Positions 13,137-64,000 of a DNA stretch of 64,000 bases are shown here, in pieces. This DNA is from Streptacidiphilus jiangxiensis. GTDB taxonomy: Bacteria; Actinomycetota; Actinomycetes; Streptomycetales; Streptomycetaceae. Position 1 is the stretch's first letter; every line of letters begins with the position of its first letter. The stretch is taken from positions 62,001-126,000 of the forward strand of contig NZ_FOAZ01000018.1 in assembly GCF_900109465.1 (NCBI RefSeq), written 5' to 3'. The position numbers were made by a program, and so were the translations under genes. Under the pieces are notes generated by a model. That model made no database searches. It saw nothing but the letters and a program-made list of their open reading frames with translations, and was not told the DNA's origin.

Positions 13137-13137
13137 C

Positions 13138-13782: not shown

Positions 13783-13790
13783 GGGTGTGC

Positions 13791-47901: not shown

Positions 47902-48399
47902 TCAGAGGGCGGCGGGCTGCGGCAGGAAGTGGTAGCTCCCCTTGCGGTAGAGCAGCGGGTCCCGTGCGAACACCGTTCCCCCGTCGACCCTGCCGATGAT
48001 CAGCAGGTGGTCGCCGGCCTCGACCGTCTGCTCGGTGCGGCACTCGGCGTAGGCGAGTGCGACCTCCGTCAGGACCGGAGCGCCCTCCGCCACGGCCGAC
48101 GGCTCCCACCGCGTGCGCGTGAACTTGTCCTGCCCCTTGCCCGCGAAGATCTGCGAGGCGTCGACCCCTTCGCTGGACAGGAAGTTGACCACGAAGGCGC
48201 GCGAGGTCTGCAGCGCGGGCAGGGTGTTCGACGCCTTGCCCACACTGATCATCAGCAGCGGCGGCTCGGCCGAGACCGCGCAGAAGGCGTTGCAGGTGAA
48301 CCCGCGGGGGCTGCCGTTCTCGTCGATCGCGGTGACGACGGCGACAGCGGTCGGGAGGGAGCCGAAAATCTCGCGGAACCGCTCTGAACTCACCGGCAT
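47902..48399 (-). CDS. Flavin reductase (two-component monooxygenase partner)
   Basis: A 165-residue FMN/FAD-dependent reductase that supplies reduced flavin to a separate oxygenase. It has FGSLPTAVAVVTAIDENGSP, RGFTCNAFCAVSAEPPLL, NFLSSEGVDASQIFAG and the C-terminal HLLIIGRVDGG. It lies at the 3' end of the long minus-strand operon, 48 bp beyond the first ATP-grasp gene, while the luciferase-like monooxygenase is at the 5' end of the same operon. That pairing is the likely functional one. Confidence 0.85.
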   Translation of the reverse strand: MPVSSERFREIFGSLPTAVAVVTAIDENGSPRGFTCNAFCAVSAEPPLLMISVGKASNTLPALQTSRAFVVNFLSSEGVDASQIFAGKGQDKFTRTRWEPSAVAEGAPVLTEVALAYAECRTEQTVEAGDHLLIIGRVDGGTVFARDPLLYRKGSYHFLPQPAAL

Positions 48400-48447
48400 G
48401 CCACTTCACCATGTTCCTGTATGTCGACAACGAGCGCGGATCGCCGC

Positions 48448-49692
48448 TCAGAGCAGTTCAAGTTCGAGCTCCCGTAGCTCCTTGTAGGCCCGCTCGATCT
48501 CGGCAGCGTCCCGATGGACCAGGAACACGGCTGCCGGGGAGGAGTTCAGGTCCACCGTCCGGGCGGTCGTCGTGCCCTCGGCACGGCGGAACCGGATGCT
48601 CTCGAAGGCGGGGAGTGTCGTCAGCCGCTCCCGGATGGCCTCGGCGGGGAACGGCACCTCGCGGCGCGCGATCAGGCTCACGCACCGCGCCAGCTCCTGC
48701 CGGGCGTAGAGGTTCGGGCGGGCGGCCAGTTCCGTCCCTCCGCCGACGTAGCAGTCGAGCGTCAGCGTGACCTGGTCGGCCCCGGTGCACCGGTCGAGCG
48801 CGGGCGGATTGGCCAGGCCCGACACCCGCGCGCCGGTCTCCAGCAGGACCGGCCCGGCCGCGGTGAGGATCAGTTCGGTGTGGGCCGGACCGTTGACGAT
48901 GCCGAGCCCGTCGAGGACGGCGGAGACGTAGGCCAGGATGTCCGCGAGGCGCGGGTCGTCGGACGCGAGGAGGTCCTCGTAGTCGTAGACCTTCCGGTCC
49001 GCCACGGTCACCTTGCCGCTGATCCAGGCGTCGGTGAACCAGTGCACGCCGTCCCGGCTCACCGAGTTGACGATGTACTCGTCGCCGTCGAGATACTCCT
49101 GGACCAGCACCGCCTCGTTGGCGCGCAGCATCAGGTTGGTCTTGCCGAGCACGGCCGTGGCCGCGCTGCGCACCGCCTGCTCGGTGTCGCAGGTGAAGAC
49201 GTCGTCCGAGCCGGCGCTGTCGATCGGCTTGACCACCACACGCTCGAGCCCGCTCTCGCGCCACCAGCGCACGAGCTCCTCGACGTCACCGCTGCGCAGT
49301 TGACGCGGCGTGCGGACGCCGGCGGCCCGCAGGGCGTCCATCATCAGCGACTTGTCCCGGCGCGCGAGTGAGTGTGCGGGGTCGTTGCCGCGCAGTCCGA
49401 GCCGCGCGGCGATCTCGTCGGCGACCTCCACCCCGAACTCGCTGGCCGGGATCACCGCCACCGGCCCGAGCTCGACCAGGCGTTGCAGCACCTGCTCGAC
49501 CTGGCCGGGGTAGGTGAGGTCCTCCTCGAAGATTCCGACGGGCAGGCTGGCCGCGAAGGTGTCCGGCAGCTGCGCGCGGGAGCGGATGTGTATCAGCCGG
49601 AAGTCGTCGGCCGCCTGTCGCGCCAGCATGGCACCCGTGGAGAGAGCGTCCACGATCACGACGAGGGGCTTGGACGAGTCGTTCTGGGTCAT
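48448..49692 (-). CDS. ATP-grasp ligase 1
   Basis: A 414-residue enzyme with an N-terminal Rossmann-like lid (PLVVIVDALSTGAMLARQ) and a central ATP-grasp fold: VVVKPIDSAGSDDVFTC with the ATP-binding Lys, LVQEYLDGDEYIVNSVS, and LTAAGPVLLETGARVSG, where Glu and Asn/Arg-type residues hold Mg2+. Such enzymes join a carboxylate to an amine through acyl phosphate. The ATG at 49692 has GGGAAGGA upstream. It is separated from the mutase gene by only 38 bp. Substrates unknown; probably peptide or amide bond formation. Confidence 0.87.
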   Translation of the reverse strand: MTQNDSSKPLVVIVDALSTGAMLARQAADDFRLIHIRSRAQLPDTFAASLPVGIFEEDLTYPGQVEQVLQRLVELGPVAVIPASEFGVEVADEIAARLGLRGNDPAHSLARRDKSLMMDALRAAGVRTPRQLRSGDVEELVRWWRESGLERVVVKPIDSAGSDDVFTCDTEQAVRSAATAVLGKTNLMLRANEAVLVQEYLDGDEYIVNSVSRDGVHWFTDAWISGKVTVADRKVYDYEDLLASDDPRLADILAYVSAVLDGLGIVNGPAHTELILTAAGPVLLETGARVSGLANPPALDRCTGADQVTLTLDCYVGGGTELAARPNLYARQELARCVSLIARREVPFPAEAIRERLTTLPAFESIRFRRAEGTTTARTVDLNSSPAAVFLVHRDAAEIERAYKELRELELELL

Positions 49693-49730
49693 CTGAGATC
49701 CTTCCCGACGGGCGGGATCGTGCTCGGAAC

Positions 49731-50987
49731 TCAACCGGACACCATGGCGCCGTGCTTGTCGTAGCGGTTCACCACGTGGTTGAGCATGTTGTGGAGCTGG
49801 TCGGAGCGCAGTCGGGCGGGCTCCGTACCGTGGGCGGGGCCCGGCAGCGGGAGCCGGCCCCGTGCGCCCCAGACCAGGGCGCCACGGTCGTCGATCAGGG
49901 TGGTCGCGGCCCCCCGGTTGTCCGGGTGCAGGCAGAAGGGGATGTCGAGCAGTCCGCGACTGAAGGCCTTGACGAGAGCCGTGCCGACGTCGGGGTCGAG
50001 GTCCAGGACGCAGTCCACCAGCAGGCTCGCCTCCTCCAGGACCTCGGCGTAGTAGCCGTCGTCGGGTTCGGCGCCGAGATCCGACGGAACGGCGGCTTCG
50101 GCGGCGGCGAGCCGCAGGGCCTCGAGGTTCTCGGACACGGTCGGGATCTGCCACGCCTCCGAGACCGTCTTGACGATGATCCGCTCGCACCCGGTGTCGC
50201 GGGCGAGCCGGGCGCTGTCGCGGATGAGCCCGGTGGCGCCGTCGGGGGTCCGCGGGAACAGGCCCATGTAGGTGTAGAGCACGACGTGCCAGGTCACGTC
50301 GCCCAGGTGCGCCGCGGCCAGGGTCCGCAGGGCCCGGATCGCGCCGCGGTCCTGCGCGGCCAGGGTGCCCTGCGCGTAGCTGAGCGACATGTGGCGCAGT
50401 CCGTGCTGACGGAAGAAGCAGCCCTCCAGCACCGAGACCGCCACCAGCAGCGAGGGCGGGCAGAGCTGCCCGAGCAGGCAGCCGCCGAAGCTCTCGATGT
50501 GCCCGAACTCGGTCTCGCCCGCCAGGAACCGACAGCTCTCGGCCCAGGCGTCGACGGCCTCGGTCAGCGGCAGCCGGCTGTAGGGCAGGCAGTAGGAGAC
50601 CGGCCCGCCCTCCGTGGCGTCCAGGCCCGCCGCGACCAGGCTCCGGAAGACCGGGAGCGGAAGAGCGGTGCCGTGGCGCACCTGGACGGGGAAGGTCGGC
50701 CCCTCCAGGCCGCGGAGGAGCTCCCGGGTCTCCTCCGCGGTGTACGAGACGAGCGGATATCCGTTCACCTCCTCGCCTGCGGCGAGGCGTTCCAGCGGGG
50801 TGACGTGGTCGCCGACCCGGGTGTAGCTGTCGAGGGTGAGCGTCCCGACCACCGGGAAGTCCAGCTCCGCGACCTGGGCGAGCCCGTGCCGCATGGCCGC
50901 GAGCCGTCCGAACCCCATCCGTGGCTGGACGAGGACATCACCCCGGCCCCGGTGTGCGGCGACGAGGCGGTCCAGATGTCCACCCAC
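49731..50987 (-). CDS. Glutamate mutase large subunit-like (GlmE/MutE)
   Basis: A 418-residue TIM-barrel protein of the B12-dependent glutamate (methylaspartate) mutase large-subunit family, slightly shorter than the usual 480. The substrate-binding residues known from that enzyme are present: Arg of QPRMGFG, Arg of TLDSYTRVGD, Arg of VRHGTALP, and Glu/Tyr/Tyr of TEGGPVSYCLPYSRLPL. GHIESFGGCLLGQLCPPSLL and IIVKTVSEAWQIPT match further conserved blocks. It would interconvert glutamate and 3-methylaspartate, or a close analogue, with the small subunit encoded at 53732-54220. The GTG start lies 1 bp after the preceding stop. Confidence 0.82.
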   Translation of the reverse strand: MGGHLDRLVAAHRGRGDVLVQPRMGFGRLAAMRHGLAQVAELDFPVVGTLTLDSYTRVGDHVTPLERLAAGEEVNGYPLVSYTAEETRELLRGLEGPTFPVQVRHGTALPLPVFRSLVAAGLDATEGGPVSYCLPYSRLPLTEAVDAWAESCRFLAGETEFGHIESFGGCLLGQLCPPSLLVAVSVLEGCFFRQHGLRHMSLSYAQGTLAAQDRGAIRALRTLAAAHLGDVTWHVVLYTYMGLFPRTPDGATGLIRDSARLARDTGCERIIVKTVSEAWQIPTVSENLEALRLAAAEAAVPSDLGAEPDDGYYAEVLEEASLLVDCVLDLDPDVGTALVKAFSRGLLDIPFCLHPDNRGAATTLIDDRGALVWGARGRLPLPGPAHGTEPARLRSDQLHNMLNHVVNRYDKHGAMVSG

Positions 50988-50988
50988 G

Positions 50989-52497
50989 TCAGCGGCCTGA
51001 GATCAGCTCTAGGGCCGGACCGCCGGTCCGCACGTCGACCGTGCGCACCTGGGCCTTGTGCGGGTCCCCCGCACGCACCCTGGCCATCATGGTCGCGTTC
51101 GAGCCGAAGTCGACCAGCGAGCTGCGGTACAGGGTCCGCAGCTGCGCGAGCGTCAGTCCCGACATGCTCTCGAGCCAGGAGCCGACACCGTCGCCGTCCT
51201 CCTCGCCGCGGAGCACGCGGTGCAGCGCCGCCACGTCGTCGCCGTGCTTCGGGTGGCATCGTTCGACGAAGCGTGCGAGCCGTTCCCCCTCGCCGGTGAA
51301 GGGCGAGAAGACCATCGCGACCAGGGACTCCTCACGGAGCCCGAAGACGTTCTCGGCGTAGTCGGCCGACACCGCCCGGCGCTCGACGATCTTGGCGGGC
51401 GAGTCATAGCGGCTCAGCGCGAGCTGGATCAGCCGGTCGGGCATCTCCTTCTTGCGCATCATCGTCTCGGCCAGCTCCAGGTACTCCCGCACGCCGGCCT
51501 CGTAGGTGCGGTCCTCGACGTACTGGGCGCGCAGCCCGCGCAGGTGCGCCATGAGCGTGGGGTTGGCGCAGTCCGACTCGGTGAAGCTGAAGGCCAGGTC
51601 GTCGAAGCGGAAGCCGAGGAAGTCGACGATCAGGTCCCAGTGGTCGTCGACGCGGTAGCTGACCAGGTCGTAGATCGAGATGAAGTCCGGCTGCCGGTCC
51701 CGGTCCCGGTCACCGGTGGAGACCTCGCGCTCGAGCAGGTAGGCCTCCTCGTCGTCACCGAAGAGCTCGCGGAAGTACTGGTCCCCGATGCCGCGCAGCG
51801 CCGTCAGCAGCCCGCGGAAGCCCATCCTGCGGCACTGCTCGACATCGATGCCGCTGTCCTTGGCCAGACGCAGGATCCAGGCGGAGTACAGCAACTGCTC
51901 CCGTCGGGAGTCGCCGGTCATGACCGTGTCGACACCGCCCTGCCACCAGGCCGCCCGGCCGTAGAAGTCCGCCACCGCGAGGTTGCAGCTGTTGCAGAAC
52001 GTCGGTCGCCCGTCGCCGGCCGAACGGTGTCCGTTCATCAGCACGTCGACGCGGTTGATCTCGATCAGTCGCTCGGGAAGCGGCAGGTCGACCCGGAAGG
52101 GGCGGACCTGCGTGTGGTCGATGGTGAGCAGTTCCGCCCGGTCGTCGTCCAGCAGCTCGAGAGCCGCGTAGACACGGTGGATGTTCTCCATCACGGCGAG
52201 CGGGACACCCGCGTGGCGCATGTTCGCCACCCGCATCGTGAAGGTGGTGCCCCGGGTGAGCGCCAGGTGGAGCTGAACGGCGCGCACGAAGGCGACGACG
52301 TAGGTGCTGTCCTTGCCGCCTCCGTAGGCGACCATGACCTTGTACTCGGCCAGCCGGTCGACCCCGCCGGCGGCGTCGACCAGTTTCGCGCCGACCCCCT
52401 CCATGCCCTGCAGTTCGACCTCGGTGAGGAAGCCGGTCAACCGGTCGTGAAGGATCCGGTCGTCGTCCCGCGCCGTGCGGTCGGTCTGGAGGCTCAT
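50989..52497 (-). CDS. PP-loop (adenine nucleotide alpha-hydrolase-like) ATPase
   Basis: A 502-residue protein with an N-type ATP pyrophosphatase motif VMVAYGGGKDSTYVVAFVRA (about residues 54-73) and a Cys pair FCNSCNLAVADFYGRAAWW, followed by TGDSRREQLLYSAW. Members of this superfamily adenylate a substrate for attack by nitrogen or sulfur (as in NAD, asparagine or thio-modification chemistry). The C-terminal half has no recognised match. The ATG overlaps the ATP-grasp 2 stop (ATGA). Likely amidation, thiolation or carboxylate activation in this pathway. Confidence 0.72.
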   Translation of the reverse strand: MSLQTDRTARDDDRILHDRLTGFLTEVELQGMEGVGAKLVDAAGGVDRLAEYKVMVAYGGGKDSTYVVAFVRAVQLHLALTRGTTFTMRVANMRHAGVPLAVMENIHRVYAALELLDDDRAELLTIDHTQVRPFRVDLPLPERLIEINRVDVLMNGHRSAGDGRPTFCNSCNLAVADFYGRAAWWQGGVDTVMTGDSRREQLLYSAWILRLAKDSGIDVEQCRRMGFRGLLTALRGIGDQYFRELFGDDEEAYLLEREVSTGDRDRDRQPDFISIYDLVSYRVDDHWDLIVDFLGFRFDDLAFSFTESDCANPTLMAHLRGLRAQYVEDRTYEAGVREYLELAETMMRKKEMPDRLIQLALSRYDSPAKIVERRAVSADYAENVFGLREESLVAMVFSPFTGEGERLARFVERCHPKHGDDVAALHRVLRGEEDGDGVGSWLESMSGLTLAQLRTLYRSSLVDFGSNATMMARVRAGDPHKAQVRTVDVRTGGPALELISGR

Positions 52498-53732
52498 ACC
52501 GCGGCCACCTCGAATTCGTAGTTCTCGATGATGTGGTGGATGTCCGACTCCACCGTCTTCTCGTCGTCGCCCAGGAGGATGAAGCGGCCGCTGTGCAGCG
52601 CGTCGTACGCGCCGCCGGGCTCCAGCACCTCGCCCACGCCGGGCAGCAGCTCACGCCAGACCGAGGGAACCCGGTCGCGCATCGAACGTGCCGTCACCAC
52701 CCGCACCGCACCCGTGGACGGCTTGGGAAGGACCAGCCAGCCGCCCGACGGATCGCCCTGCTTGGCCGGCACCGACATCGACTCGCCGGACAGGTTGCGG
52801 AGCCAGACCTCGTAGAGGTTGACGCCGAAGACCCGGTTCAGCAGGTGCGGGACCTCGCTCCCGCCCACCCGGCCGCCGATCTCGAGGAAGACCAGGTCGC
52901 CGTCGGGCGTCACGAAGAGCTCGAGGTGGAACGGGGTGATCCGCATCCCCAGGGAACTGACGCACTGCTGGGTGAAGGCCTCGATCCGGTCCCGCAGGTC
53001 GGATCGCTGGACGACGACCGATCCGAGCGGAGCGCCCGCTCCGAAGGCCAGGCAGTCGTTCACGTACCGGGAGGCGACCTGGAAGACGACCCCGGAACCC
53101 TCGTCGGCGTAGCCGTCGACGTGGAAGATCTCCCCGGTGACGAACTCCTCGATCTCGTAACGGGCCAGATCCAGCGTCGGCAGGAGCTCCGCCAGCGCCG
53201 ACGCGTCCTCGACCCGGTGGACGCCGATGCTCGCGGCGCCGTCGACGGGCTTCAGGATGACCGGGAACCCGCACGACTCGGCGAAGGCCAGGGCCTGCTC
53301 GGTGCTCACGCACGCGGCGAAGCGCGGCACGCGCATGCCCGCCTCCGCCAGCAGTTCCTTCATCCGCACCTTGTCGCGGTAGACCGCCACCTCGGCCGTG
53401 TCGGGGCCCGGCAGTCCCAGCTCCTCGCGGACGCGGGCGGCGATCTCCAGGGTGAACTCCGAGAGGGCGATCAGCTGGTCGACCGGTCCGACCTTCGCCG
53501 TCACCTCGAGCACGGCCGTGCGCAGCGACTCGACGTTGTTGACGTCCTCCACCTGCACGAGGTGGGCGATCCTGGACGGGTCCACCAGGACGCCCCGGGC
53601 GCCCGGGCCGTCCACCACGTAGCTGACCCGGTGGGCGTCGTGGTCGATGAACTCCTCGTAGCGGGTCAGCTCGTTGTCCCAGCGAACGCCGTCGTCGAAA
53701 CGGGGCCAGCGGTTGACGATGACGATATGCAT
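52494..53732 (-). CDS. ATP-grasp ligase 2
   Basis: A 412-residue ATP-grasp enzyme beginning MHIVIVNRWPRFDDGVRW. ATP-binding lysine region VILKPVDGAASIGVHRV (about residue 180), EEFVTGEIFHVDGYADEG, and metal-binding FHLELFVTPDGDLVFLEIGG. It resembles carboxylate-amine ligases and L-amino-acid ligases. The start shares bases with the stop of the mutase small subunit (TGATG), and its own stop overlaps the PP-loop start, so translation of these genes is coupled. Confidence 0.87.
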   Translation of the reverse strand: MHIVIVNRWPRFDDGVRWDNELTRYEEFIDHDAHRVSYVVDGPGARGVLVDPSRIAHLVQVEDVNNVESLRTAVLEVTAKVGPVDQLIALSEFTLEIAARVREELGLPGPDTAEVAVYRDKVRMKELLAEAGMRVPRFAACVSTEQALAFAESCGFPVILKPVDGAASIGVHRVEDASALAELLPTLDLARYEIEEFVTGEIFHVDGYADEGSGVVFQVASRYVNDCLAFGAGAPLGSVVVQRSDLRDRIEAFTQQCVSSLGMRITPFHLELFVTPDGDLVFLEIGGRVGGSEVPHLLNRVFGVNLYEVWLRNLSGESMSVPAKQGDPSGGWLVLPKPSTGAVRVVTARSMRDRVPSVWRELLPGVGEVLEPGGAYDALHSGRFILLGDDEKTVESDIHHIIENYEFEVAAV

Positions 53733-54220
53733 CAGTACACCTCGACGATCGATCTCGTCGGCGCGTCCCAGGGAGCGACGACTGCGGCATCTGCCTGCCA
53801 CGCGGAAAAACCCTCGGACTTCCCGAAGCGCAGGAAGTCCTGGAAGCGGGCGATGGCGTCATCGCCCGTAAAGACCTCGGTGTAGCCGAGCAGGAGCAAC
53901 TCGGCACGCACGGCGCCGTTGTTCGACTCCGCCGTCGTCAGCTTCCCGCCGACGACGCAGGGGACCTCCAGCCCCTGCTCGCGCAGCGCCTGGAGCAGGA
54001 CACGCGCACCGTGCAGGCCGTGGCCGTTGACGCTCGACACGACGAGCAGATCCGGCGGCTCCTCGCCGACGGCACGGAGCACCTCGGCGACGGGCGTGCA
54101 GGCACCGAGGTTGCGGACCTGTCCCCCGTTCTCCTCCAGCACCTTCTGGAGGTAGACGAGGTTCCACATGTGCGAGTCGGATTCGACGGTGACCAACAGG
54201 GACCGGAACGGCTGCCTCAT
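53732..54220 (-). CDS. B12-binding small subunit, glutamate mutase-like (GlmS/MutS)
   Basis: A 162-residue cobalamin-binding domain protein. SLLVTVESDSHMWNLVYLQ contains the Co-ligating His in D15-x-H17; the usual Gly of DxHxxG is Asn20. NLGACTP, VVSSVNGHG and VVGGKL match the SxL and GG sites that surround the B12 tail. It pairs with the large subunit encoded at 49731-50987, with two other genes in between, an unusual order. The start overlaps the MFS stop (ATGA). Confidence 0.82.
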   Translation of the reverse strand: MRQPFRSLLVTVESDSHMWNLVYLQKVLEENGGQVRNLGACTPVAEVLRAVGEEPPDLLVVSSVNGHGLHGARVLLQALREQGLEVPCVVGGKLTTAESNNGAVRAELLLLGYTEVFTGDDAIARFQDFLRFGKSEGFSAWQADAAVVAPWDAPTRSIVEVY

Positions 54221-55461
54221 GCGGGGACTCCCGCCGGCTCCGGTTCGCGGGCCGTGAGCGCCTGCCGGAAGCTGCGCATGGTCAGCGGCAGGAAGACGGC
54301 GCCGAACAGACACAGGGCCACGGTCAGCACGGTGACCAGGCTCTGCGGCCCGATCGTGGAGGCCGCCCCGCCGACGACGAGGCCCGCGATCGGCATGGAC
54401 AACAGGTTGAGCAGGTAGAACGGCCCCATGATCTTGCCGAGGTGCTCCTGCGGGATCACCTTGAGCCGCTGCGTGCGGTTGTAGATGTTGTAGAGCGCGT
54501 CCCCGATGAGCGCGGCGACGAAGCCGCAGGCGTAGACCGGGTACGAGGGAGCGACTCCGGCGAGCAACAGCGCGCAGCACAGCAGGACGAACCCGGTCGC
54601 ACCGATCATCCCGACCCCGAACCGCCGCAGGAGCTTGGGGATCAGCAGCAGGTTGAGCAGGCCGATGATGCCCACCACGGTGTTGAGCAGGCCGTACGCG
54701 GAGTCCGGAGCGTGGAAGACACCGGTGACCAGTGCCGCGTTGGCGCTGAGCAGAGTGGCGAAGACGAGGTTGATGCTGAAGTTGAGGATGCCGAGCAGGA
54801 GCACCGGGCGGTTGCCCACCAGCAGACGCCAGCCCATCGCGAGATCCGCCAGGTTCTGCCGGGCACTGCTCTCGCTGACCTCACGCGGGCCCCGCGGGAG
54901 CGGGAGCCAGGCCGCGGCTCCGAGCCCGAAGGCGCCGGCAGCGACCGCAAGCAGCCACAACTTGCCCAGCACGGCCGCCGCCAGCATGGCCAGGGCGGGC
55001 CCCAGCGCCATGGCCAGCAGCTCCATGTTCTGGACCAGTGCCTGGGTGGGGGCGACCTGGTCGCCCTTGGCCAGCTGCGGGACCATCTTCTCCACCGACA
55101 TCCTGGTCGGCGCGACGAAGATCGACAGAACGGCCCCGCCGGTCATCAGGGCGCCGGTCGTCCAGGACGACTCCGTGGCACACACCAGCAGGACGATGAG
55201 AAGCACGGCCCCGCGGATCCCCATGACCCGGGAGAACAGCCGGGCGCCGCCGTCACGGTCGGCGACGAGACCGGCGAAGGGGTAGGCGATCAGGCTCGGC
55301 AGCCATTCGAGTGCGAAGGCAAAGCCGAGACTTGACACCTCTTTGGTGTTCTGGAAGATCAACAGTGGCACCGCGAAGAGCACCACCTGCTCCGAAATCA
55401 GTCCCAGCAGCACCCCGGACCCGAAAAGGGTCCGGTGGAGTCGGCTCGCGGCCTCGGTCAT
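54217..55461 (-). CDS. MFS transporter, probable product exporter
   Basis: A 414-residue major facilitator of the EntS/DHA3-like group, with about 12 membrane segments. It starts LHRTLFGSGVLLGLISEQVV, has WLPSLIAYPFAGLVADRDGG for the loop 2-3 motif and GLLNTVVGIIGLLNLLLIPK in helix 8-9. Its stop overlaps the mutase small-subunit start and its ATG overlaps the monooxygenase stop, so it is co-translated with biosynthetic genes. Product export and self-protection is the natural role. Confidence 0.87.
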   Translation of the reverse strand: MTEAASRLHRTLFGSGVLLGLISEQVVLFAVPLLIFQNTKEVSSLGFAFALEWLPSLIAYPFAGLVADRDGGARLFSRVMGIRGAVLLIVLLVCATESSWTTGALMTGGAVLSIFVAPTRMSVEKMVPQLAKGDQVAPTQALVQNMELLAMALGPALAMLAAAVLGKLWLLAVAAGAFGLGAAAWLPLPRGPREVSESSARQNLADLAMGWRLLVGNRPVLLLGILNFSINLVFATLLSANAALVTGVFHAPDSAYGLLNTVVGIIGLLNLLLIPKLLRRFGVGMIGATGFVLLCCALLLAGVAPSYPVYACGFVAALIGDALYNIYNRTQRLKVIPQEHLGKIMGPFYLLNLLSMPIAGLVVGGAASTIGPQSLVTVLTVALCLFGAVFLPLTMRSFRQALTAREPEPAGVPA

Positions 55462-56564
55462 CCCAGCCGTCCGGCGCGCTCGTGCTCCCGGATGAGCGGC
55501 AGCACGTTCGTGTAGAAGATGCGCATCTCGTCCCGCGTGGGCCAACCCGAGAAAATGAACTCGCTGACCCCGGCCGCCTTGTAGCGGTGGAGGTACTCGG
55601 CTACTTCCTGGTAACTTCCCACCACGCAGAGGGCCGGACCACCACGGTAGGCCACCGCGCCCGAATACAGCACTGGCGAGAGCCAGTCGCCGTTCGCCTG
55701 GTCGGCCAGCCGGAAGGAGTTCTTCACTGCCTCGGAGTCCGATGCGGCAACGAAGTTGGTGACCCACTCCTTGTGGTCCTCGTCGGGGTCGCGCATCATC
55801 TCGGCCAGATCGGCCAGGGCCTCGGCCCGGGTCTCCCTCGCCAGGACGTGCATGCGGATGCCGACCCGCCCCCCGCGCTGCAGGACGGACTCGGCGACCG
55901 GGGCGATGCCCTCCGGGGTGTCGCCGTAGCGCAGCCAGCAGTCCCCGTGGTCGACCGCGGTCTGCTGGGCGACTCCTGACGCACCGCTGATGTAGATGAA
56001 CGGACGGCCACCGCCCTTGTAGCCCAGACCGAGCTGCGCGTCCTCGATCGTGTAGTGCTCCCCCTTGAAGGAGACCGGGGTCTCGCCGCGCCAGAACCTG
56101 TGCAGAATGTCCAGGAACTCGTTCGACCGGGCATATCGTGCGTCGTGCGCGAGGAAATCACCGTAGTAGGCCTGCTCGGCCGGGGAGATGCCGGCGACCA
56201 GATTGAGCGCGATACGCCCGTCTGACATCCAGGAAACGGTGTTGACGACCTGCGCGAAAAGCGTCGGCGAAAGCAGACCGGGGCGGTAGGCAAGAATGAA
56301 CTTGACATTCTTCGTCTCGCGGACGAGGGCGCCGATCATCGGCAGCGGATCAGGCATGTGATAGCTGATTCCCATAAGCAGGGAATCGACTCCGAGCCGG
56401 TCCGCCTCCTGCGCGAAGTCGACTATTCCGTCGAAGTCGAGCTCGCCCGTCCGATACTTCTCGGTGGCCTTCTGCTGTCCACTGTCGAGCGGCGAGCACC
56501 AATGGACCTTGAGCTCTTCCGAAACGGCCGCGCCCTGACGTGACGATCCCTCAAGAATGGCCAT
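55458..56564 (-). CDS. LLM-class FMN-dependent monooxygenase (SsuD-like)
   Basis: A 368-residue luciferase-like flavin monooxygenase. It has GISYHMPDPLPMIGALVRET, FILAYRPGLLSPTLFAQVVN, GRIALNLVAGISPAEQAYYG, and YISGASGVAQQTAVDHGDCW, the last typical of alkanesulfonate-type enzymes. It needs reduced FMN from a separate reductase, provided by the gene at 47902. The ATG at 56564 was chosen because AAAGGTG precedes it; a Met five codons earlier is also possible. First gene of the eight-gene minus-strand operon. Confidence 0.88.
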   Translation of the reverse strand: MAILEGSSRQGAAVSEELKVHWCSPLDSGQQKATEKYRTGELDFDGIVDFAQEADRLGVDSLLMGISYHMPDPLPMIGALVRETKNVKFILAYRPGLLSPTLFAQVVNTVSWMSDGRIALNLVAGISPAEQAYYGDFLAHDARYARSNEFLDILHRFWRGETPVSFKGEHYTIEDAQLGLGYKGGGRPFIYISGASGVAQQTAVDHGDCWLRYGDTPEGIAPVAESVLQRGGRVGIRMHVLARETRAEALADLAEMMRDPDEDHKEWVTNFVAASDSEAVKNSFRLADQANGDWLSPVLYSGAVAYRGGPALCVVGSYQEVAEYLHRYKAAGVSEFIFSGWPTRDEMRIFYTNVLPLIREHERAGRLG

Positions 56565-56996: not shown

Positions 56997-57992
56997 TTGT
57001 CCGCTGACACCGCAGGGGCTGCACTCCCGACCCCGCGCGCGCATCTGACCTCGGACCGAACCCGCGCTGCGCTCACGCTGCAGGGCCGATTCCTGGCAGG
57101 AGCCCGCGACTTCCTGGTCTCGGAGGGCTTCACGGAACTGCTGCCGCCGACCATCGGCCCGGTCACCGACCCGGGGGCCCGCGGAGCCAAGCAGGTCGAC
57201 ATCGACTACTACGGCCACCGCTACAAGTTGATGACCAGTGGCATCCTGTACAAGCAGGCCTCGCTGCTCAGCTTCGACAAGATCTTCCACGTCGCGCCGA
57301 ACGTCCGGCTCGAACCGCTCGAGACCGCGGTGACCCACCGCCACCTGGTCGAGTTCCACCAGCTCGACGTCGAGATCGCCGGCGCTTCCCGGGAAGACGC
57401 GATGGACGTGGCGGAGCGGCTGACCAAGCACTGCGTCGAGCACGTCCTGTCCACCGCGCAGGAGCAACTGGAGATCCTCGCGCGGGAGACGGAGCAGCTC
57501 AAGCAGGTGTGCGCCGCTCCCTACGGGCGCAAGCGGCACTCCGAGGCCGTCGCCGAGCTGCGGGCCACCGGGTACGACCAGGCGGAGAACACGGAGATCG
57601 AGTGGGAGGGCGAGGAGATCATCTCCGCGGCCGCCCCGCACCCGTTCTTCATCACCGACTACCCCAAGGGCTCCCGCGGGTTCTACGACAAGGAGAACAC
57701 CGAGGACCCCGGCGTCCTGCGCAACTTCGACCTCATCTTCCCCGGCGGCTTCGGCGAGATGATGAGCGGCAGCGAGCGGGAGGCCGACTACCGCAACCTG
57801 ATGATGCGCATTCGCGAGACCGGGGAGAACCCCGCCAAGTACGAGTGGTACCTGACGCTGGCCCGCGAGGGCATTCCCTCCAGCGCCGGATTCGGGCTGG
57901 GCGTCGAGCGGTTCACCCGCTTCCTGGGCGGCCTCGACGCCGTGTGGCAGGCCTCGGGCTACCCCAAGCTGCCCGGGGAGCCCCGGCCGTGA
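56997..57992 (+). CDS. Asparagine synthetase-like AsnRS-core ligase
   Basis: A 331-residue class II aminoacyl-tRNA-synthetase catalytic core related to AspRS/AsnRS but lacking the N-terminal anticodon-binding domain (about 100 residues shorter). Motif 2 region RIFHVAPNVR is present as KIFHVAPNVRLEP; FDLIFPGGFGEMMSGSERE and motif 3 GFGLGVERFTRFLGG are clear. Such stand-alone cores include archaeal asparagine synthetase, which amidates aspartate using ATP and ammonia. Amidation or aminoacylation of a (methyl)aspartate-like intermediate fits the mutase nearby. The start appears to be TTG at 56997, since the frame is closed by a stop 15 bp upstream. The next gene overlaps as GTGA. Confidence 0.78.
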   Translation: MSADTAGAALPTPRAHLTSDRTRAALTLQGRFLAGARDFLVSEGFTELLPPTIGPVTDPGARGAKQVDIDYYGHRYKLMTSGILYKQASLLSFDKIFHVAPNVRLEPLETAVTHRHLVEFHQLDVEIAGASREDAMDVAERLTKHCVEHVLSTAQEQLEILARETEQLKQVCAAPYGRKRHSEAVAELRATGYDQAENTEIEWEGEEIISAAAPHPFFITDYPKGSRGFYDKENTEDPGVLRNFDLIFPGGFGEMMSGSEREADYRNLMMRIRETGENPAKYEWYLTLAREGIPSSAGFGLGVERFTRFLGGLDAVWQASGYPKLPGEPRP

Positions 57993-59233
57993 CGGACCTT
58001 CAGGCGCCCGGGTTCGCCGAGGAGCACGTCCGTGCCCGCGCGCGGCACGGTGCCGGCTCGGCCTTCCCGGACCGGGAGGGTTACGGCTCGACTCTCTTCG
58101 GGGGAGCGGCGGCCACCCTCCCTCCGCCGACCGACCCGATCGACCGGGCGCGTCTCGTCCCTCCGGTCTTCGTGCCGCTGCGCCTCGAGCGACTCTTCGA
58201 CCTCGGTCGCGAGCCGCTCTCCGGCGACGTCGACCTGACCACCGACGTCGGCGGTCTGCGCTCCACGCTCCCGGTCTACATCTCGGCCTTCGGGTCCACC
58301 GCGGCCGCCAGTGACCTGGGTCTCGGCGTCGCACAGCAGGCCGGTCGGCTGGGTATCCCCATGGTGATCGGCGAGAACATCGTGCCGGTGTCCGGCTACG
58401 GCCGGATGGAGCAGGAGAAGCAGAGCTCCCTGCTCGGCCGGATCACGCAGTACATCGACGCGGCCCCGCCGGACCTCGGCGGCGTGGTCGTCCAGCAGAG
58501 CACCGAGGACGCCAACGCCGAGGTGTGGAACCTGGTCTACAGCGATCCGGCGGCCCAGCCGCTGCTGACCACGGGCCGACTGGCCTTCGAGCTGAAGGTC
58601 GGTCAGGGAGCCAAGCCGGGCGTCGGCGGCATGACGCTGGTCCCCCGTGCACGGGCGGCCGAGCTGTCGACGCAGTACGACATCATGGACCTCTACGGCC
58701 CCGCGAGCGAGTCGGTGCTGCGCTGCAGCAGCCCGGGCACCTTCTCCGAGGAGATCCTGCGTCAGCAGATCCGCCTGATGCGGAACAACTATCCGCGCTG
58801 CCGGGTGTGGGTCAAGCTGCCGCCGGGGCGCGACGTGCACCACGCCGCAGCGGTCGCGTGGGCCGCCGGGGCGGACTCCGTCACCGTCGACGGCGCCGAG
58901 GGCGGCACGGGTTGGGCTCCCAGCGCCTTTCTGGACCAGGTGGGCCTTCCGCTCGCGGAGTGCCTCGACCGGGTCACTCCCGAGGAGAACTGTCTGCTCG
59001 TCAGCGGGCGTGTCTGGGAGGGCGCTCGCGCCGTCAAGTGCCTCGCGTTGGGCGCCAGGGCGGTGGGTCTCGGCCGGGCCGCCCTCATCGCGACCGACGA
59101 GGATCCGAAGCTGGGCCTGGAGAACTTCCTGGAGTGCCTGGCCCTGGAGATGCGTCTGCTGATCAGCGCACTGGGGAAGTACCGCGTCTCGGACCTGTCC
59201 GCCGAGGACGTCTGGATGCCGTCGGCGCGTTAG
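57989..59233 (+). CDS. Stand-alone glutamate synthase FMN-domain-like protein
   Basis: A 414-residue FMN-binding TIM-barrel of the GltB central-domain/alpha-hydroxy-acid-oxidase-like family. FELKVGQGAKPGVGGM and VDGAEGGTGWAPSAF correspond to the GltB KxxQGAKPGxGG and GGTGAAP motifs. The glutaminase and iron-sulfur parts of true glutamate synthase are absent, so it may be a reductase, dehydrogenase or amine/imine oxidoreductase. The GTG start overlaps the AsnRS-like stop (GTGA): the two genes form a coupled pair. A 20-bp hairpin follows. Confidence 0.78.
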   Translation: MTDLQAPGFAEEHVRARARHGAGSAFPDREGYGSTLFGGAAATLPPPTDPIDRARLVPPVFVPLRLERLFDLGREPLSGDVDLTTDVGGLRSTLPVYISAFGSTAAASDLGLGVAQQAGRLGIPMVIGENIVPVSGYGRMEQEKQSSLLGRITQYIDAAPPDLGGVVVQQSTEDANAEVWNLVYSDPAAQPLLTTGRLAFELKVGQGAKPGVGGMTLVPRARAAELSTQYDIMDLYGPASESVLRCSSPGTFSEEILRQQIRLMRNNYPRCRVWVKLPPGRDVHHAAAVAWAAGADSVTVDGAEGGTGWAPSAFLDQVGLPLAECLDRVTPEENCLLVSGRVWEGARAVKCLALGARAVGLGRAALIATDEDPKLGLENFLECLALEMRLLISALGKYRVSDLSAEDVWMPSAR

Positions 59234-59244
59234 CCCGCCGACAC

Positions 59245-59286: not shown

Positions 59287-59292
59287 GTCGTG

Positions 59293-60198
59293 TCAGCCGG
59301 CGACGGCTGACAGTTCGTCCATCAGACGGTCGGTCAGCGGCACTGGTACCCCGTGCCGCTGCGCGGCCCGCAGCAGCGCACCACCGATCGCGTCGAGTTC
59401 GAGCGGGCGGCCTGCCTCGGCGTCCCGCTGCATCGAGGACTTCGCCTCCGGGGGGAAGGCGTCGTACAGCGCCAACGAAGCCGCCGGGTCGCCCGGCCCG
59501 CCGCAGGCGCGGCTCAGCGCGGCCGTCTCCTCGACCAGGGCGAGCAGCTCGGCCCGGCGTTCGGTCCGCACCTCACCGATCGTCAGTCCGTAGCGCGTCG
59601 TGAGCAGGGCGAACGGAGCGAGGAAGGACAGCTTCCCCCACAGCACCGCGTTCTCGTCGTCCTTGACCGTGGCGCGGACGCCGGAGTCGACCAGCACCCG
59701 GGCCAACGCGTCGAGGCGCTCCCGGTCGGCCGTGGCACTCGCCAGGTCGATGTCGACGAAGGAGCTGCCCTGGGTGATCCTCCCCGGCGCGACACGGGTC
59801 GACTCGACCCGGACGACCGCGGGGACCACCTGGTCGGGCCGGTACCGGTCACGCAGCGCGGCCACGTGGTCGATCCCGTTGAGCAGCGGCACGACCAGGC
59901 CGTCCCCCAGCACCGCCGGCGGAACGCGCTCCAACGCCTGGGCGAGGCTCGTCTGCTTGACGGTCACCAGGCACACGTCCGCCGGTTCGCGAAGCTCGGT
60001 GTCGGCCTCGACCCGCACCTGGAACGTGCCGAACTGCTTGCTCTCCACGCTGACGCCGTCACGACGCAGGACCTCCACGGTCTCCGCCCCGGCCAGGAAG
60101 ACGACCCGGTGCCCCGCACGGGCCGCCAGGGCGCCCACCAGTCCCCCGACACCACCGGGTCCGAGAACAGCCACCGTTCGGCTGTGCCCTGATCGCAT
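59293..60198 (-). CDS. Ketopantoate reductase-like (ApbA/PanE) oxidoreductase
   Basis: A 301-residue NADPH-dependent reductase. It has VLGPGGVGGLVGALAARAGH (residues about 11-30), VTVKQTSL, PLLNGID with the substrate Asn, and a C-terminal helical domain beginning LWGKLSFLAPFALLTTRYGL. In PanE the equivalent helix has two conserved Asn residues (WxKLxxNxxxN); here they are Phe/Leu and Phe, suggesting a different keto-acid or imine substrate. AAGGGAA precedes the ATG. Last gene of the pabAB-ATP-grasp operon. Confidence 0.8.
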   Translation of the reverse strand: MRSGHSRTVAVLGPGGVGGLVGALAARAGHRVVFLAGAETVEVLRRDGVSVESKQFGTFQVRVEADTELREPADVCLVTVKQTSLAQALERVPPAVLGDGLVVPLLNGIDHVAALRDRYRPDQVVPAVVRVESTRVAPGRITQGSSFVDIDLASATADRERLDALARVLVDSGVRATVKDDENAVLWGKLSFLAPFALLTTRYGLTIGEVRTERRAELLALVEETAALSRACGGPGDPAASLALYDAFPPEAKSSMQRDAEAGRPLELDAIGGALLRAAQRHGVPVPLTDRLMDELSAVAG

Positions 60199-60267
60199 CA
60201 GCAGTTCCCTTCGTTCAGGCAGCCCTCGCCCACTCCTCGGTCGGGCGGACGCGCTGCGCGGACGACC

Positions 60268-61482
60268 CTACAAGTCGTCGGAGCCGGTTCGGTCGACGGG
60301 GACGAGGTTCGCCATGATCCAGTCCTCGACCTCCTGCACGCGCGCCTCCACCTCGGCGAAGTCGCGGCCGCTGACGATGGCGAAGCAGAGGTAGGCGCTG
60401 CTGCTCGACGGGTGGGCGCCGAGGGCGAGGCCCTCGTTGACCGTGTACTCGTGCACCCAGGGGAAGGGCGGCCGGCCGGGGGCGCGGACGGCACGGCCCT
60501 GAGGGGTGATCGAGACGGAGCCGTGGAGCAGGGCCGGCGGGGTGGCCGGCGGCGGGTCGACGGGGAGGCCGCAGGAGAGGCGGAACCACGCCGTGTGGAG
60601 GTCCAGGCCGTAGGTGGCACGGGTCAGCGCGGGCAGACGGGAGCCGGCGATGCGGGAGGCGATCTCGCACAGGACCAGGCCGTCGTCCGGGGTGTGGAAC
60701 ACCTCCAGGTGGTAGGCACCGACCGGCGGGACCTCGAAGGCCGAAAGGACCTGGTCCAGGAACTCCGCGAGCCGGATGGCGAAGGGGTCCTCCGGGTGGA
60801 GCAGCAGGTGGCCGTTGTGCCGGCCCTCCAGCACCCCGAGGCAGTCCCGCAGGTAGCGGGAGGCGGAGACGAAGCGGTAGCCCTCGGAGATGACCGCGTC
60901 CACGGCGAAGATCTGCCCGGGGACGAAGTCCTCGACCATGAGGTCCTCGCGCCACGGACGGTGGGCGAAGGCCACGAGGTCGGCCTCGTCGCGCAGCACC
61001 GAGACGTCGCGCGAGCCGGCGAGCTTGACCGGCTTCACGACCACCGGATAGGCGTGCTCCTCGATGAAGGCGAGCAGGTCGGCGAAGCGCTCCAGCGGGG
61101 CGAACGCAGGCACCGGGACGGCCTGTCGGGCCGTCTGCTTCATCACGAGCTTGTCCCGGAAGGCCAGTGCGCTGGCGCCGGACTGCCCGGGGAGGCCGAG
61201 GTCGTCCCGCAGGTGGGCCGCCCGCTCCAGGTCGTACTCGTTGTCGGTGAGGATCCGGCTGATCGGCGTGTGCCGGGCCAGCTGGCGGATGCGCAGCTCC
61301 GCGTAGGGGATCTCCTCGCTGTTCTCGATGACCTCGTAGGTGGCGAAGCCGGACGTGTCGCCGGCCACCGCGTTCTGGCTGAACACGTGGAGACGGCCCG
61401 CCAGTTCGGGCAGCATCGCCGCGTAGTCGCGCGTCGCGGTGTAGTTGATGACGGCGACGCTCTCCAAGGTGGGCTCCCCCAC
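60268..61482 (-). CDS. ATP-grasp ligase 3
   Basis: A 404-residue ATP-grasp enzyme starting VGEPTLESVAVINYTATRD. VVVKPVKLAGSRDVSVL has the ATP Lys (about residue 155), VEDFVPGQIFAVDAVISEG, and YHLEVFHTPDDGLVLCEIAS for metal binding. The GTG at 61482 was chosen because GAGGAGAG lies 5 nt upstream; a TTG five codons earlier is unlikely. It is clearly a different sequence from the other two ligases, so it probably handles a different bond. It lies 34 bp after pabAB. Confidence 0.87.
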   Translation of the reverse strand: MGEPTLESVAVINYTATRDYAAMLPELAGRLHVFSQNAVAGDTSGFATYEVIENSEEIPYAELRIRQLARHTPISRILTDNEYDLERAAHLRDDLGLPGQSGASALAFRDKLVMKQTARQAVPVPAFAPLERFADLLAFIEEHAYPVVVKPVKLAGSRDVSVLRDEADLVAFAHRPWREDLMVEDFVPGQIFAVDAVISEGYRFVSASRYLRDCLGVLEGRHNGHLLLHPEDPFAIRLAEFLDQVLSAFEVPPVGAYHLEVFHTPDDGLVLCEIASRIAGSRLPALTRATYGLDLHTAWFRLSCGLPVDPPPATPPALLHGSVSITPQGRAVRAPGRPPFPWVHEYTVNEGLALGAHPSSSSAYLCFAIVSGRDFAEVEARVQEVEDWIMANLVPVDRTGSDDL

Positions 61483-61516
61483 GGTCTCTCCTCGCAAAGG
61501 TTCGGGATGGTGCCGG

Positions 61517-63730
61517 TCAGCGGGCGCCCGCGCCGATGGTCACGGGCTCGTGTCGCACGGGGGCGTGGGTGGTGCGGCCGAGGCTGACGGCGAGGGTGTC
61601 GGTCATGGCCTTCGCCTTGACGACGGTCTCCTCGAACTCCTCGGCGGGGTCGGACAGGGCGACGACTGCTCCGCCGACGCCGAAGCCGACCTCGCCGGGG
61701 GTGGCCACGATGGTGCGGTTGACCACGTTGAGGTCGCAGGCGCCGCTCAGTGAGAACCAGCCCAGGGTGCCCGAGTAGACGCCGCGCGGGCCCTGCTCCA
61801 GACGGTCGATGATCTCCAGCGTGCGGAGCTTGGGCGCACCGGTCATCGAGCCGCAGGGGAAGGCCGCGCGCACGCAGTCGACCGCGGTCAGGTCCGGACG
61901 CAACCGGCCGCGGACGGTGGTCACCAGGTGGTGCACCTGGGCGAAGCTCTCCACCGCGAACAACTCGGGCACATGGACCGAGCCGGTCTCGCAGACGGTG
62001 TTGAGGTCGTTGCGGACCAGGTCGACGATCATCAGGTTCTCGGCGCGGTCCTTCTCGCTGTGCTCCAGCGAGCGACGGTGGCGCTCGTCCTCGGCCGGCG
62101 TCCGCCCGCGCGGGCGGGTCCCCTTGATCGGCTTCGACTCGACGTTCCCCTGCGCGTCGACGGTCAGGAAGCGCTCGGGCGAGGCGCTCAGCACGGCGAC
62201 CCCGGGGAAGTCCAGCAGCGCCCCGTACGGCACGGGGCTGATCCGGCGCAGGTCGGTGAAGACCCGCAGCGGGTCCACGTCGGCCCGCACGACCGCGGCG
62301 TTGGACAGACAGATCTCGTAGGACTCGCCGTTGTTCAGCTCCTGCAGGCAGGACTCGACGAGCTCCAGGTACTCGCGCCGCGAGAAGCGCAGCTCCGGCT
62401 GCGGTGCCGCAGCGGGGGCGAGCAGGAGGTCGTCCTCCTCCCCGCCGGAGCCGGTCAGGCCGGTGAGGCCGGTCAGCACAGGCAGGACGGGCAGGACGGG
62501 CAGCACAGGCAGGTCGAGCAGCGCGGCGCCGGAGGCGTCCAGCCAGGCCTGTGTCTCCGGGTCGGCCTCGCCGCGACCGAGGCCCAGCAGGTAGCAGCAT
62601 CCCTCGCTGTGGTCGATCACCAGGGCCCGGTCGGCGAAGACCATCGCGGCGTCGGGAGAGACGGCTCGACGGTCCGTCATGGATCCGGTCTCGGCCCGCA
62701 GTTCGTATCCGAGGTAGCCGACGTAGCCGAGGTTGAAGCGGAACGGGAGGCTGTCGTCGGCAGGCGTGGCCCGCGCCCGCAGCTGGGCGTCGAGGTAGTC
62801 GAGGAAGGAGGTGACGACGCGCTCCACCGGGCGCCCCCGACGGTGGATCTCCAGGGTCCGGTCCGCGACCCGGTAGCTCAGGAACTCGCCGAGCGGTCCG
62901 GAGCCCGCGCCCATCACGGAGAACCTGGCCCCCTGGGCCGGCCCGCTGCTGCTGTCCAGCCAGAAGCCGGACGGTTCGGCGGAGAAGAGATGACGATAGG
63001 CCGTCAGGGCGTCCGGCTCGACCGGCAGTCGCCGCACGGAGACCTGGTACGCCGGCTCGGGCCGGACGACGGGCGCGGGCTCCGCCTCGGGAGTGGGCTC
63101 CGCCGCGGGCACGGGCTGGGCCGCGGCGCGGGCGGGCTCGGCCGAGACCCACCAGGCGCGGGTGAGGTCACGGAAGTTGGCGAGGAGCTCCCGACCGCCG
63201 TCACTGCAGATCGACTCCGGGTGGAACTGCACTCCCCAAATCGGGAGTTCGCGGTGCCGCAGGGCCATCAGCACCCCGTCCTCGGACCAGGCGACACCCT
63301 CGAGCGCGTCCGGCAGCGCACCGACGGCCAGCGAGTGGTAGCGCACCACCGAGAGCGGGGACGGCAGGCCCGCGAAGAGGTCCCGGCCCTGGTGGGTGAC
63401 CGCGGAGACGCGGCCGTGCCGGGGCTCCGGCGCGTGCCGGACCTCGCCGCCGAAGACGTGGCAGATGCCCTGGTGCCCCAGGCAGACGCCGAGGACCGGC
63501 AGCCGCCACTCCCGCAGCACCCGCGTGCTGACGCCGAAGTCCTTCTCCCGGTCGGGGCGCCCCGGCCCGGGCGAGATCACGACGTTGTCGTAGGCGGCCG
63601 GGTCGAGCGAGGCGAAGTCGACGTCGTTGCGGACCACCGTGGGTTCCTGGCCGTTCACCTCGGCCAGGAGTTGGTGCAGGTTGTAGGTGAAGGAGTCGTA
63701 GTTGTCGATCAGAAGAGTGCGCATGGCCAT
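61517..63730 (-). CDS. pabAB: Aminodeoxychorismate synthase, fused PabA-PabB
   Basis: A 737-residue fusion converting chorismate and glutamine to 4-amino-4-deoxychorismate, the pABA precursor. The N-terminal glutaminase has LLIDNYDSFTYNL, VCLGHQG with nucleophile C83, and QFHPESI. A Pro/Ala-rich linker (about residues 196-235) follows. The chorismate domain has ESKPIKGTRPRG; the Lys of PIKGT distinguishes PabB from anthranilate synthase, which has Ala there. GSMTGAPKLRTLEIIDRLE is the usual C-terminal motif. Inside it is a low-complexity run of LPV and LTG repeats. Downstream come an ATP-grasp and KPR gene. Confidence 0.9.
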   Translation of the reverse strand: MAMRTLLIDNYDSFTYNLHQLLAEVNGQEPTVVRNDVDFASLDPAAYDNVVISPGPGRPDREKDFGVSTRVLREWRLPVLGVCLGHQGICHVFGGEVRHAPEPRHGRVSAVTHQGRDLFAGLPSPLSVVRYHSLAVGALPDALEGVAWSEDGVLMALRHRELPIWGVQFHPESICSDGGRELLANFRDLTRAWWVSAEPARAAAQPVPAAEPTPEAEPAPVVRPEPAYQVSVRRLPVEPDALTAYRHLFSAEPSGFWLDSSSGPAQGARFSVMGAGSGPLGEFLSYRVADRTLEIHRRGRPVERVVTSFLDYLDAQLRARATPADDSLPFRFNLGYVGYLGYELRAETGSMTDRRAVSPDAAMVFADRALVIDHSEGCCYLLGLGRGEADPETQAWLDASGAALLDLPVLPVLPVLPVLTGLTGLTGSGGEEDDLLLAPAAAPQPELRFSRREYLELVESCLQELNNGESYEICLSNAAVVRADVDPLRVFTDLRRISPVPYGALLDFPGVAVLSASPERFLTVDAQGNVESKPIKGTRPRGRTPAEDERHRRSLEHSEKDRAENLMIVDLVRNDLNTVCETGSVHVPELFAVESFAQVHHLVTTVRGRLRPDLTAVDCVRAAFPCGSMTGAPKLRTLEIIDRLEQGPRGVYSGTLGWFSLSGACDLNVVNRTIVATPGEVGFGVGGAVVALSDPAEEFEETVVKAKAMTDTLAVSLGRTTHAPVRHEPVTIGAGAR
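62451..62512. repeat. Minisatellite-like region inside pabAB
   Basis: Short 9-bp units (GGCAGGACG-like and GGTCAGGCC/GTGAGGCCG-like) are repeated about four plus three times. They encode four Leu-Pro-Val and three Leu-Thr-Gly triplets in the PabB part. The region sits in a variable surface loop before the catalytic motifs. Confidence 0.65.
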
Positions 63731-63791
63731 ATCGTTCCCGGGTCGTTCCGCTCGTCGGACACAGGTCGTCAACGCAGGTCCTCGACGCCCG

Positions 63792-64000
63792 TCAACGGCC
63801 GAGGAGCGCTCCTGCGTGCTCCTCGACCGCACCGAAGACGGTCAGCGCGTCGTGGAGCGCGCCGACGTCGTGCGTGCGGATGTAGTCCGCGCCCTGGAGT
63901 GCGGCGTGGATCTCGGCGGCGAGCGTGGCCGAGCCGCTGGCCTCGATGGAGCGGCCGGTGACCGTGCGCAGGAACGACTTGCGGGAGGCCGAGATCATGA
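63792..64000 (-). CDS. folP: Dihydropteroate synthase, C-terminal part
   Basis: The minus-strand frame runs off the right end; about 69 C-terminal residues are visible. SASRKSFL and YIRTHDV are the conserved DHPS motifs whose Lys/Arg and Arg/His bind pABA phosphate-side and pterin substrates. It condenses pABA with dihydropterin pyrophosphate in folate synthesis. It lies 61 bp upstream of pabAB in the same direction, so it is probably in that operon. It may be a second, pathway-specific copy conferring self-protection; the chromosome's main folP lies elsewhere if so. Confidence 0.8.
   Translation of the reverse strand, partial: MISASRKSFLRTVTGRSIEASGSATLAAEIHAALQGADYIRTHDVGALHDALTVFGAVEEHAGALLGR

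Follow-up and report, generated by a model that had tools for sequence, protein, structure and literature searches.

Our analysis of a 64,000-nucleotide stretch of the Streptacidiphilus jiangxiensis genome (assembly GCF_900109465.1, contig NZ_FOAZ01000018.1, positions 62,001 to 126,000, G000:C52:62001-126000; hereafter the window) revealed a real, uncharacterised, composite gene cluster that is larger than the part lying in the window. Judged from its sequence, the cluster holds at its heart a Sul-type dihydropteroate synthase (DHPS), FolP, together with PabAB, a fused aminodeoxychorismate (ADC) synthase; this is the firm new fact of the study. The locus spans ∼31 kb, from position 47902 to ∼14 to 15 kb beyond the window end, and joins two gene units, A and B, via an ATP-grasp ligase (ATP-grasp 3) and a ketopantoate-reductase-like protein (KPR). 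The kinship of its folate enzyme to clinical sulfa-resistance enzymes suggests that the product may act like a natural sulfa drug.

A Sul-Type DHPS Lies beside PabAB

In comparisons with the PDB, the cluster FolP scored 308, 276 and 253 bits against Sul3, Sul2 and Sul1, respectively, and 172 bits or less against any other DHPS. Its α6 region carries the two-residue insertion of Sul1, Sul2 and Sul3, with an extra phenylalanine (DPGLGYFLGSN, compared to DPGLGF--AK in the ordinary FolP of the same genome), and its loop 2 is likewise Sul-like. Neither feature was seen in the five ordinary FolPs of the alignment, one of which is the genome's own, on contig C76. The Sul enzymes are also its closest sequence family. 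Specifically, in a 40-row tree the cluster FolP grouped with Sul1 to Sul3 and actinobacterial relatives with support of 100/100, and the cluster FolPs formed one group with four near homologues (eight rows, 92/86). The cluster enzyme differs from Sul1, Sul2 and Sul3, to which it is 49 to 55% identical, in being chromosomal and located in a biosynthetic locus beside PabAB. Published work (PMC10328974) describes the Phe-Gly insertion as letting Sul enzymes exclude sulfa drugs yet retain p-aminobenzoate (PABA).

Besides its ordinary FolP, the genome contains other PabA-, PabB/TrpE- and TrpB-like genes. Sul-type FolP is rare: it was found in 1 of 14 genomes of the genus and 1 of 391 of the order (both at E ≤ 1e-50) and in 1 of 396 of the phylum (E ≤ 1e-60). 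A search of 46 of the genomes or records behind the loci described below identified it in four, Streptomyces griseofuscus, Streptomyces hygroscopicus NBRC 3401, Streptomyces murinus and Kribbella catacumbae, and in the three Streptomyces, as in the window, PabAB adjoins FolP. Moreover, two of the four named strains with the nearest FolPs (at least 75% identity) were also named for an A-type PP-loop protein among the best 120 of 544 matches, with one name given per row. For Streptomyces NPDC051909 (P0003, P0122) we infer a shared contig, and FolP was the only B gene seen.

The Locus Joins Two Gene Units

Leftward of position 47902 lie FabI, FabG (read by eye) and a TldD/PmbA-type protein, which places the start of the locus near this position. 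From there the minus strand encodes a flavin reductase, ATP-grasp 1, GlmE1, a PP-loop enzyme, ATP-grasp 2, GlmS1, a major facilitator superfamily (MFS) protein and an LLM-class oxygenase; the plus strand encodes asparagine synthetase A (AsnA) and a GltB-type FMN domain protein; and KPR, ATP-grasp 3, PabAB and FolP follow on the minus strand again (Table 1). Unit B, which is flanked by PabAB and FolP, comprises an adenylation (A) domain, a peptidyl carrier protein (PCP), an ectoine-synthase-like cupin, an acyl-CoA dehydrogenase, a transglutaminase-like protein, TrpB2, two ATP-grasps and a second GlmS/GlmE pair. Eleven genes of the locus recur jointly in distant genomes, and thus their grouping is not due to chance.

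The original prediction, which was made on the window, had named these gene types and their tight start/stop overlaps. The gene types were confirmed by Pfam and NCBIfam models (the PP-loop enzyme by its GGGKDS motif and fold) and the overlaps by reading of the gene starts, except that its "AsnRS core" is asparagine synthetase A instead. Only the 3′ part of the predicted FolP is inside the window, most of the gene being outside. The count of three ATP-grasps is correct within the window and rises to five over the whole locus, and the absence of nonribosomal peptide synthetase (NRPS) genes is likewise true inside the window, beyond which a stand-alone A domain and a carrier protein are present. 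These two genes, a P450 and a second complete mutase pair were found by extending the sequence past 64 kb, as had been proposed.

A 2059-aa NRPS-like gene lies ∼4 kb past the last locus gene (L010 3831-10010; C52:144831-151010), with an amidase gene and genes reading as an MFS transporter and a hydrolase in between, and looks like part of a different cluster.

Units A and B Are Each Conserved

A PP-loop alignment was used to scan 84,980 species genomes, and the best 80 of 97 loci, together with four plasmid loci, were searched with 28 proteins of the locus. These genome searches are a first look, in which copies may be missed. Unit A, in the order KPR, GltB, AsnA, then LLM, MFS, GlmS, ATP-grasp 2, PP-loop, GlmE, ATP-grasp 1 and flavin reductase, was found whole in four Streptomyces. 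Micromonospora phytophila likewise has every gene, in a rearranged layout, and 9 to 10 of the 11 genes were seen in three Nocardia. Within the order, unit A occurs in 2 of 391 genomes. Eight unit A genes, with their order kept, are present in six proteobacterial loci (Pseudomonas and Burkholderiales, including Ramlibacter), and Methylobacter and Salinisphaera have only a four-gene form (AsnA, GlmS, PP-loop and GlmE). The LLM oxygenase is 72 to 85% identical across 14 A loci from actinobacteria and proteobacteria, and the flavin reductase adjoins ATP-grasp 1 in four Streptomyces A loci and in genome G344. A further 64 of the best 80 of 97 loci hold more distant PP-loop relatives, those at L068, L071 and L072 occurring with GlmE, AsnA and GltB as well. 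PanB genes were seen at L024, L026, L027, L051, L030 and L011 (Pseudomonas, Salinisphaera and a Methylobacter plasmid). ATP-grasp 3 appears accessory, as none of the other A or B stretches that we inspected showed it; its only close relative seen (62%) is in a further GlmS/GlmE locus on a Streptomyces NBC_01591 plasmid (L013 3709-21278).

The two units are separate in other genomes. In S. griseofuscus, A lies at 1.9 Mb and B at 7.3 Mb, and in the drafts of S. hygroscopicus NBRC 3401 and S. murinus they are on different contigs, those of S. murinus being merely 14 to 16 kb. In all three, PabAB and FolP are divergent from the A domain of unit B. A 170-aa protein without a Pfam entry marks unit B; its family comprises 49 protein clusters, among which Streptomyces and Micromonospora are the organisms named, and its confident predicted model gave no fold match. 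A search with this protein uncovered B cores in three more genomes of the order, G130, G266 and G302 (4 of 391, including the window's). The B core of G130 (L139-L140) has EPSP-synthase-like, KAS III, class-II aldolase and class-III aminotransferase genes as neighbours, and the beginning of the same row is seen in G266 (L143-L144). Conservation in other actinomycetes, which the original prediction had named as its support, was thus found for unit A. Unlinked genes in relatives, which it had said would count against it, were found between units A and B, each of which itself holds together.

A Proposed Two-Module Pathway with Folate Self-Protection

The gene content, the conservation of both units, the Sul type of FolP and the ordinary folP elsewhere in the genome are observations, and the coupling of A and B, every chemical step and the self-protection set out here are inferences. 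Our preferred reading, to which we assign a probability of roughly 0.45, is that A and B are the two modules of one pathway to an amino-acid antimetabolite that would put folate synthesis under pressure, PabAB and the Sul-type DHPS serving as self-protection. In module A, GlmE1/GlmS1 would turn glutamate into 3-methylaspartate, AsnA would amidate it and the PP-loop enzyme would reactivate the amide with NH3 and ATP, an amidine being the most likely outcome. ATP-grasps 1 and 2 would ligate this unit, the LLM oxygenase and flavin reductase would oxidise the product and the MFS protein would export it. Module B would load a polar, proline-like amino acid onto the carrier protein, where the cupin and the prolyl-PCP-dehydrogenase-like flavoprotein would cyclise or aromatise it, and ATP-grasps 4 and 5 would couple the resulting unit to the second mutase product. 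Where A and B co-occur, the product (or product pair) would press on folate synthesis; PabAB would raise the PABA supply and the Sul-type DHPS would exclude PABA mimics. The methylaspartate-type antimetabolite of the original prediction, drawn from the mutase, ATP-grasp, PP-loop and AsnA genes, is still the best theme, and that interpretation as a whole is partly supported.

A more specific and less probable version is that the product is a natural antifolate acting at the PABA site of DHPS, the first to be known, or a synergistic pair aimed at both folate and pantothenate, with the Sul-type DHPS as the self-resistance gene. Here, a glutamine-type side chain would be converted via a cyclic amidine to an aminopyrrole on the carrier protein, and this aminopyrrole-carboxyl-like heteroaromatic unit of B would be a PABA mimic that is activated or delivered only once joined to the methylaspartate-derived part from A. 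On this version, such producers would be the natural selection behind Sul-type enzymes older than the sulfa drugs.

We know of no other pathway to a natural DHPS-directed compound, and this would be the first if the preferred reading is true. A Sul-type DHPS beside PabAB in a biosynthetic locus offers a concrete, testable producer and a way, guided by the resistance gene, to what may be a new antifolate scaffold.

Alternative Explanations

Several observations weigh against the two-module pathway. K. catacumbae (L124/L126) carries, along with an ordinary FolP, a Sul-type FolP (G802:C6:194603-195391) apart from any such cluster, and no other protein among the 28 of the locus matched near it, save for a weak regulator similarity. 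In G130, G266 and G302, no PabAB or FolP was present in the fetched 38 kb, even at E 0.01, and neither a Sul-type FolP (E ≤ 1e-50) nor an A-type PP-loop was found in these genomes. Their A-domain pockets differ from that of the window at one of nine positions, and thus the B product alone needs no Sul-type enzyme. PabAB-FolP is also not required for A alone, as 12 A genomes, including G344, lack a Sul-type FolP, which is the case for five of the eight actinobacterial A genomes. The association of FolP with A plus B draws on four genomes, of which three are closely related, and is partly circular, since the other three A+B genomes were found via the FolP search in A genomes. Among the 12 A genomes without Sul-type FolP, the B marker was searched in G344 only, the other 11 being searched for B only within 10-kb flanks. 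We therefore do not rely on the Fisher comparison (4/4 versus 0/15): its A+B genomes had been picked out by FolP itself, and the genomes compared are relatives of one another.

It is a serious, if minority, possibility that A and B are independent antimetabolite clusters adjoining by chance, with FolP and PabAB protecting against, or just accompanying, one B lineage. The distance between A and B in S. griseofuscus and the occurrence of each alone elsewhere favour this explanation, and A-domain identity to the window is 64% for B with FolP compared to 50 to 52% for B without it, a gap that would fit FolP being the marker of a single B lineage. Against independence, however, Sul-type FolP occurs in three of eight actinobacterial A genomes (and in 0/6 full proteobacterial ones) versus 1 of 391 genomes of the order, and A is present as well in the two further named strains that carry near FolPs. 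Moreover, PP-loop forms from FolP-bearing strains are scattered among A-only forms in the tree (several forks being weakly supported), indicating that the A units accompanied by FolP do not make up a single, simple lineage. An unlikely explanation is that unit A alone targets pantothenate synthesis and that PabAB/FolP offset a shortage of the methylene-tetrahydrofolate consumed by PanB. Indeed, a second PanB occurs in several proteobacterial A loci, and KPR, which resembles PanE, in most actinobacterial ones: PanB adjoins A in four of six proteobacterial A loci and the four-gene form in Salinisphaera, and is also on the Methylobacter plasmid. The two PanBs tested pass TIGR00222, and the genomes of Pseudomonas and Salinisphaera carry a second, more distant PanB at another site. 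However, KPR is the sole PanE-like gene found in the S. jiangxiensis genome (E ≤ 1e-10) and hence no duplicate, PanB is missing from the two Burkholderiales A loci, and PanB or KPR could each be biosynthetic.

DHPS catalyses C–N bond formation to PABA, and PabAB meets the ADC synthase model; PabAB could accordingly supply ADC or PABA for a FolP-family enzyme to join to another product unit. We consider this improbable, as FolP retains the motifs of DHPS together with the Sul insertion, which is known to keep inhibitors out, no pabC-like lyase was noticed among the locus genes and the B core occurs without both genes. PabAB and FolP look more like self-protection than building-block genes.

Features of the Locus and Further PP-Loop Loci

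Table 1. Genes of the locus. Plain coordinates are window positions; L009 coordinates run past the window end, unit B after folP occupying L009 5739 to 18914.
Feature	Coordinates	Strand	Evidence
Flavin reductase	47902..48399	-	PF01613 135 bits; likely partner of LLM oxygenase
ATP-grasp ligase 1, PRK07206/DdaF-like	48448..49692	-	NF005543 353 bits (cut-off 302)
GlmE1, glutamate/methylaspartate mutase large subunit	49731..50987	-	PF06368 260 bits; aligned to 1cb7_B
PP-loop enzyme	50989..52497	-	No Pfam/NCBIfam family; GGKDS, CNSC; model and fold match
ATP-grasp ligase 2	52494..53732	-	PF13535 55 bits
GlmS1, B12-binding mutase subunit	53732..54220	-	PF02310 47 bits; 49% to Methylobacter protein over 120 residues
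MFS exporter	54217..55461	-	PF07690 80 bits
LLM-class flavin oxygenase, alkanesulfonate-monooxygenase-like	55458..56564	-	PF00296 165 bits; PDB best 7jv3, 155 bits
Asparagine synthetase A	56997..57992	+	NF005052 423 bits (cut-off 368)
GltB-type FMN domain protein	57989..59233	+	PF01645 78 bits
KPR, ketopantoate-reductase-like	59293..60198	-	PF02558/PF08546; TIGR00745 185 bits (cut-off 141)
ATP-grasp ligase 3	60268..61497	-	PF13535 28 bits; start TTG 61497 or GTG 61482
PabAB, fused ADC synthase	61517..63730	-	TIGR00553 355 bits (equivalog cut-off 328)
folP, Sul-type DHPS	63792..64619 extended (L009:4792-5619); 63792..64000 in window	-	
P450	L009 5739 to ~6947		
Stand-alone A domain	L009 ~7154-8650		
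85-aa carrier protein	L009 8647-8904		
Ectoine-synthase-like cupin	L009 8971-9348		
Acyl-CoA-dehydrogenase-like protein	L009 ~9360-10520		
Transglutaminase-like protein	L009 ~10546-11250		
TrpB2	L009 11266-12633		
ATP-grasp 4	L009 ~12630-13877		
170-aa protein	L009 13906-14418		No family
GlmS2	L009 14464-14946		
GlmE2	L009 14943-16331		
MFS	L009 16328-17629		
ATP-grasp 5	L009 17661-18914		
LuxR/NarL-type regulator	L009 18945-19673		

The PP-loop family, which has no Pfam model, ranges from Streptomyces to Pseudomonas and Pantoea. In the Pseudomonas loci L029, L031-L050, L052-L056, L058, L060 and L090, a lone PP-loop relative (44 to 51% identical) occurs without mutase genes, followed in most cases by a gene that resembles the L024 regulator, judged by eye to be of the MocR type. 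At L081-L085, L087-L089, L092 and L094 (Pantoea, Enterobacter), a PP-loop relative is followed by an ATP-grasp, with an EamA-type exporter gene, and L087 additionally encodes a class-II glutaminase domain, a WelO5-like oxygenase and a tRNA-editing-domain protein; these loci look like another unnamed pathway.

Comparison with Known Systems

Glutamate mutase GlmE/GlmS is used in natural-product clusters such as those for nikkomycin (SanU/SanV), vicenistatin and streptolydigin. Both mutase pairs of the locus have their E and S subunits encoded together, and the locus differs from those clusters in having two complete pairs. Residues aligned to 1cb7 and 6h9e are kept, including the GlmE Arg/Glu/Tyr/Lys positions (alignments to 1cb7_B and 6h9e_B), which we take to be those that bind substrate. 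Of the presumed GlmS motif, DxHxxG, Asp and His are kept in both proteins, the Gly being Asn in GlmS1 and Ala in GlmS2. GlmE1 is divergent from glutamate mutase, scoring 141 bits with TIGR01503 (cut-off 390).

The PP-loop enzyme matched none of the Pfam and NCBIfam families. An SGGxDS-type motif (GGGKDS or SGGKDS) was present in 20 of 20 aligned rows, in which CNSC is also invariant. Cysteines 168, 171 and 310 are the only invariant ones, and the enzyme thus lacks a zinc tetracysteine motif. It differs from N-acetyl sugar amidotransferase (NASAT, 8wex), to which it is 8% identical, in having one CxxC and one further invariant Cys. Against the dapdiamide ligase DdaF, ATP-grasp 1 reaches 195 bits and ATP-grasp 4 reaches 216 bits, far under the equivalog cut-off of 840.

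The unit B cupin matches the ectoine synthase models PF06339 (113 bits, cut-off 27) and NF009806 (131 bits, cut-off 128). EctA and EctB are not beside it, its neighbours being the PCP and the acyl-CoA dehydrogenase. Similar to the prolyl-PCP pyrrole modules of the PltF and RedW/PigA types, unit B has an A domain, a PCP and an acyl-CoA-dehydrogenase-like flavoprotein, the last scoring below the RedW and PigA L-prolyl-PCP dehydrogenase equivalog cut-offs (335 versus 650 and 352 versus 500). The A-domain pocket has four residues in common with PltF and is polar at four other positions. Unlike those modules, unit B has the ectoine-synthase-like cupin inserted between the PCP and the dehydrogenase.
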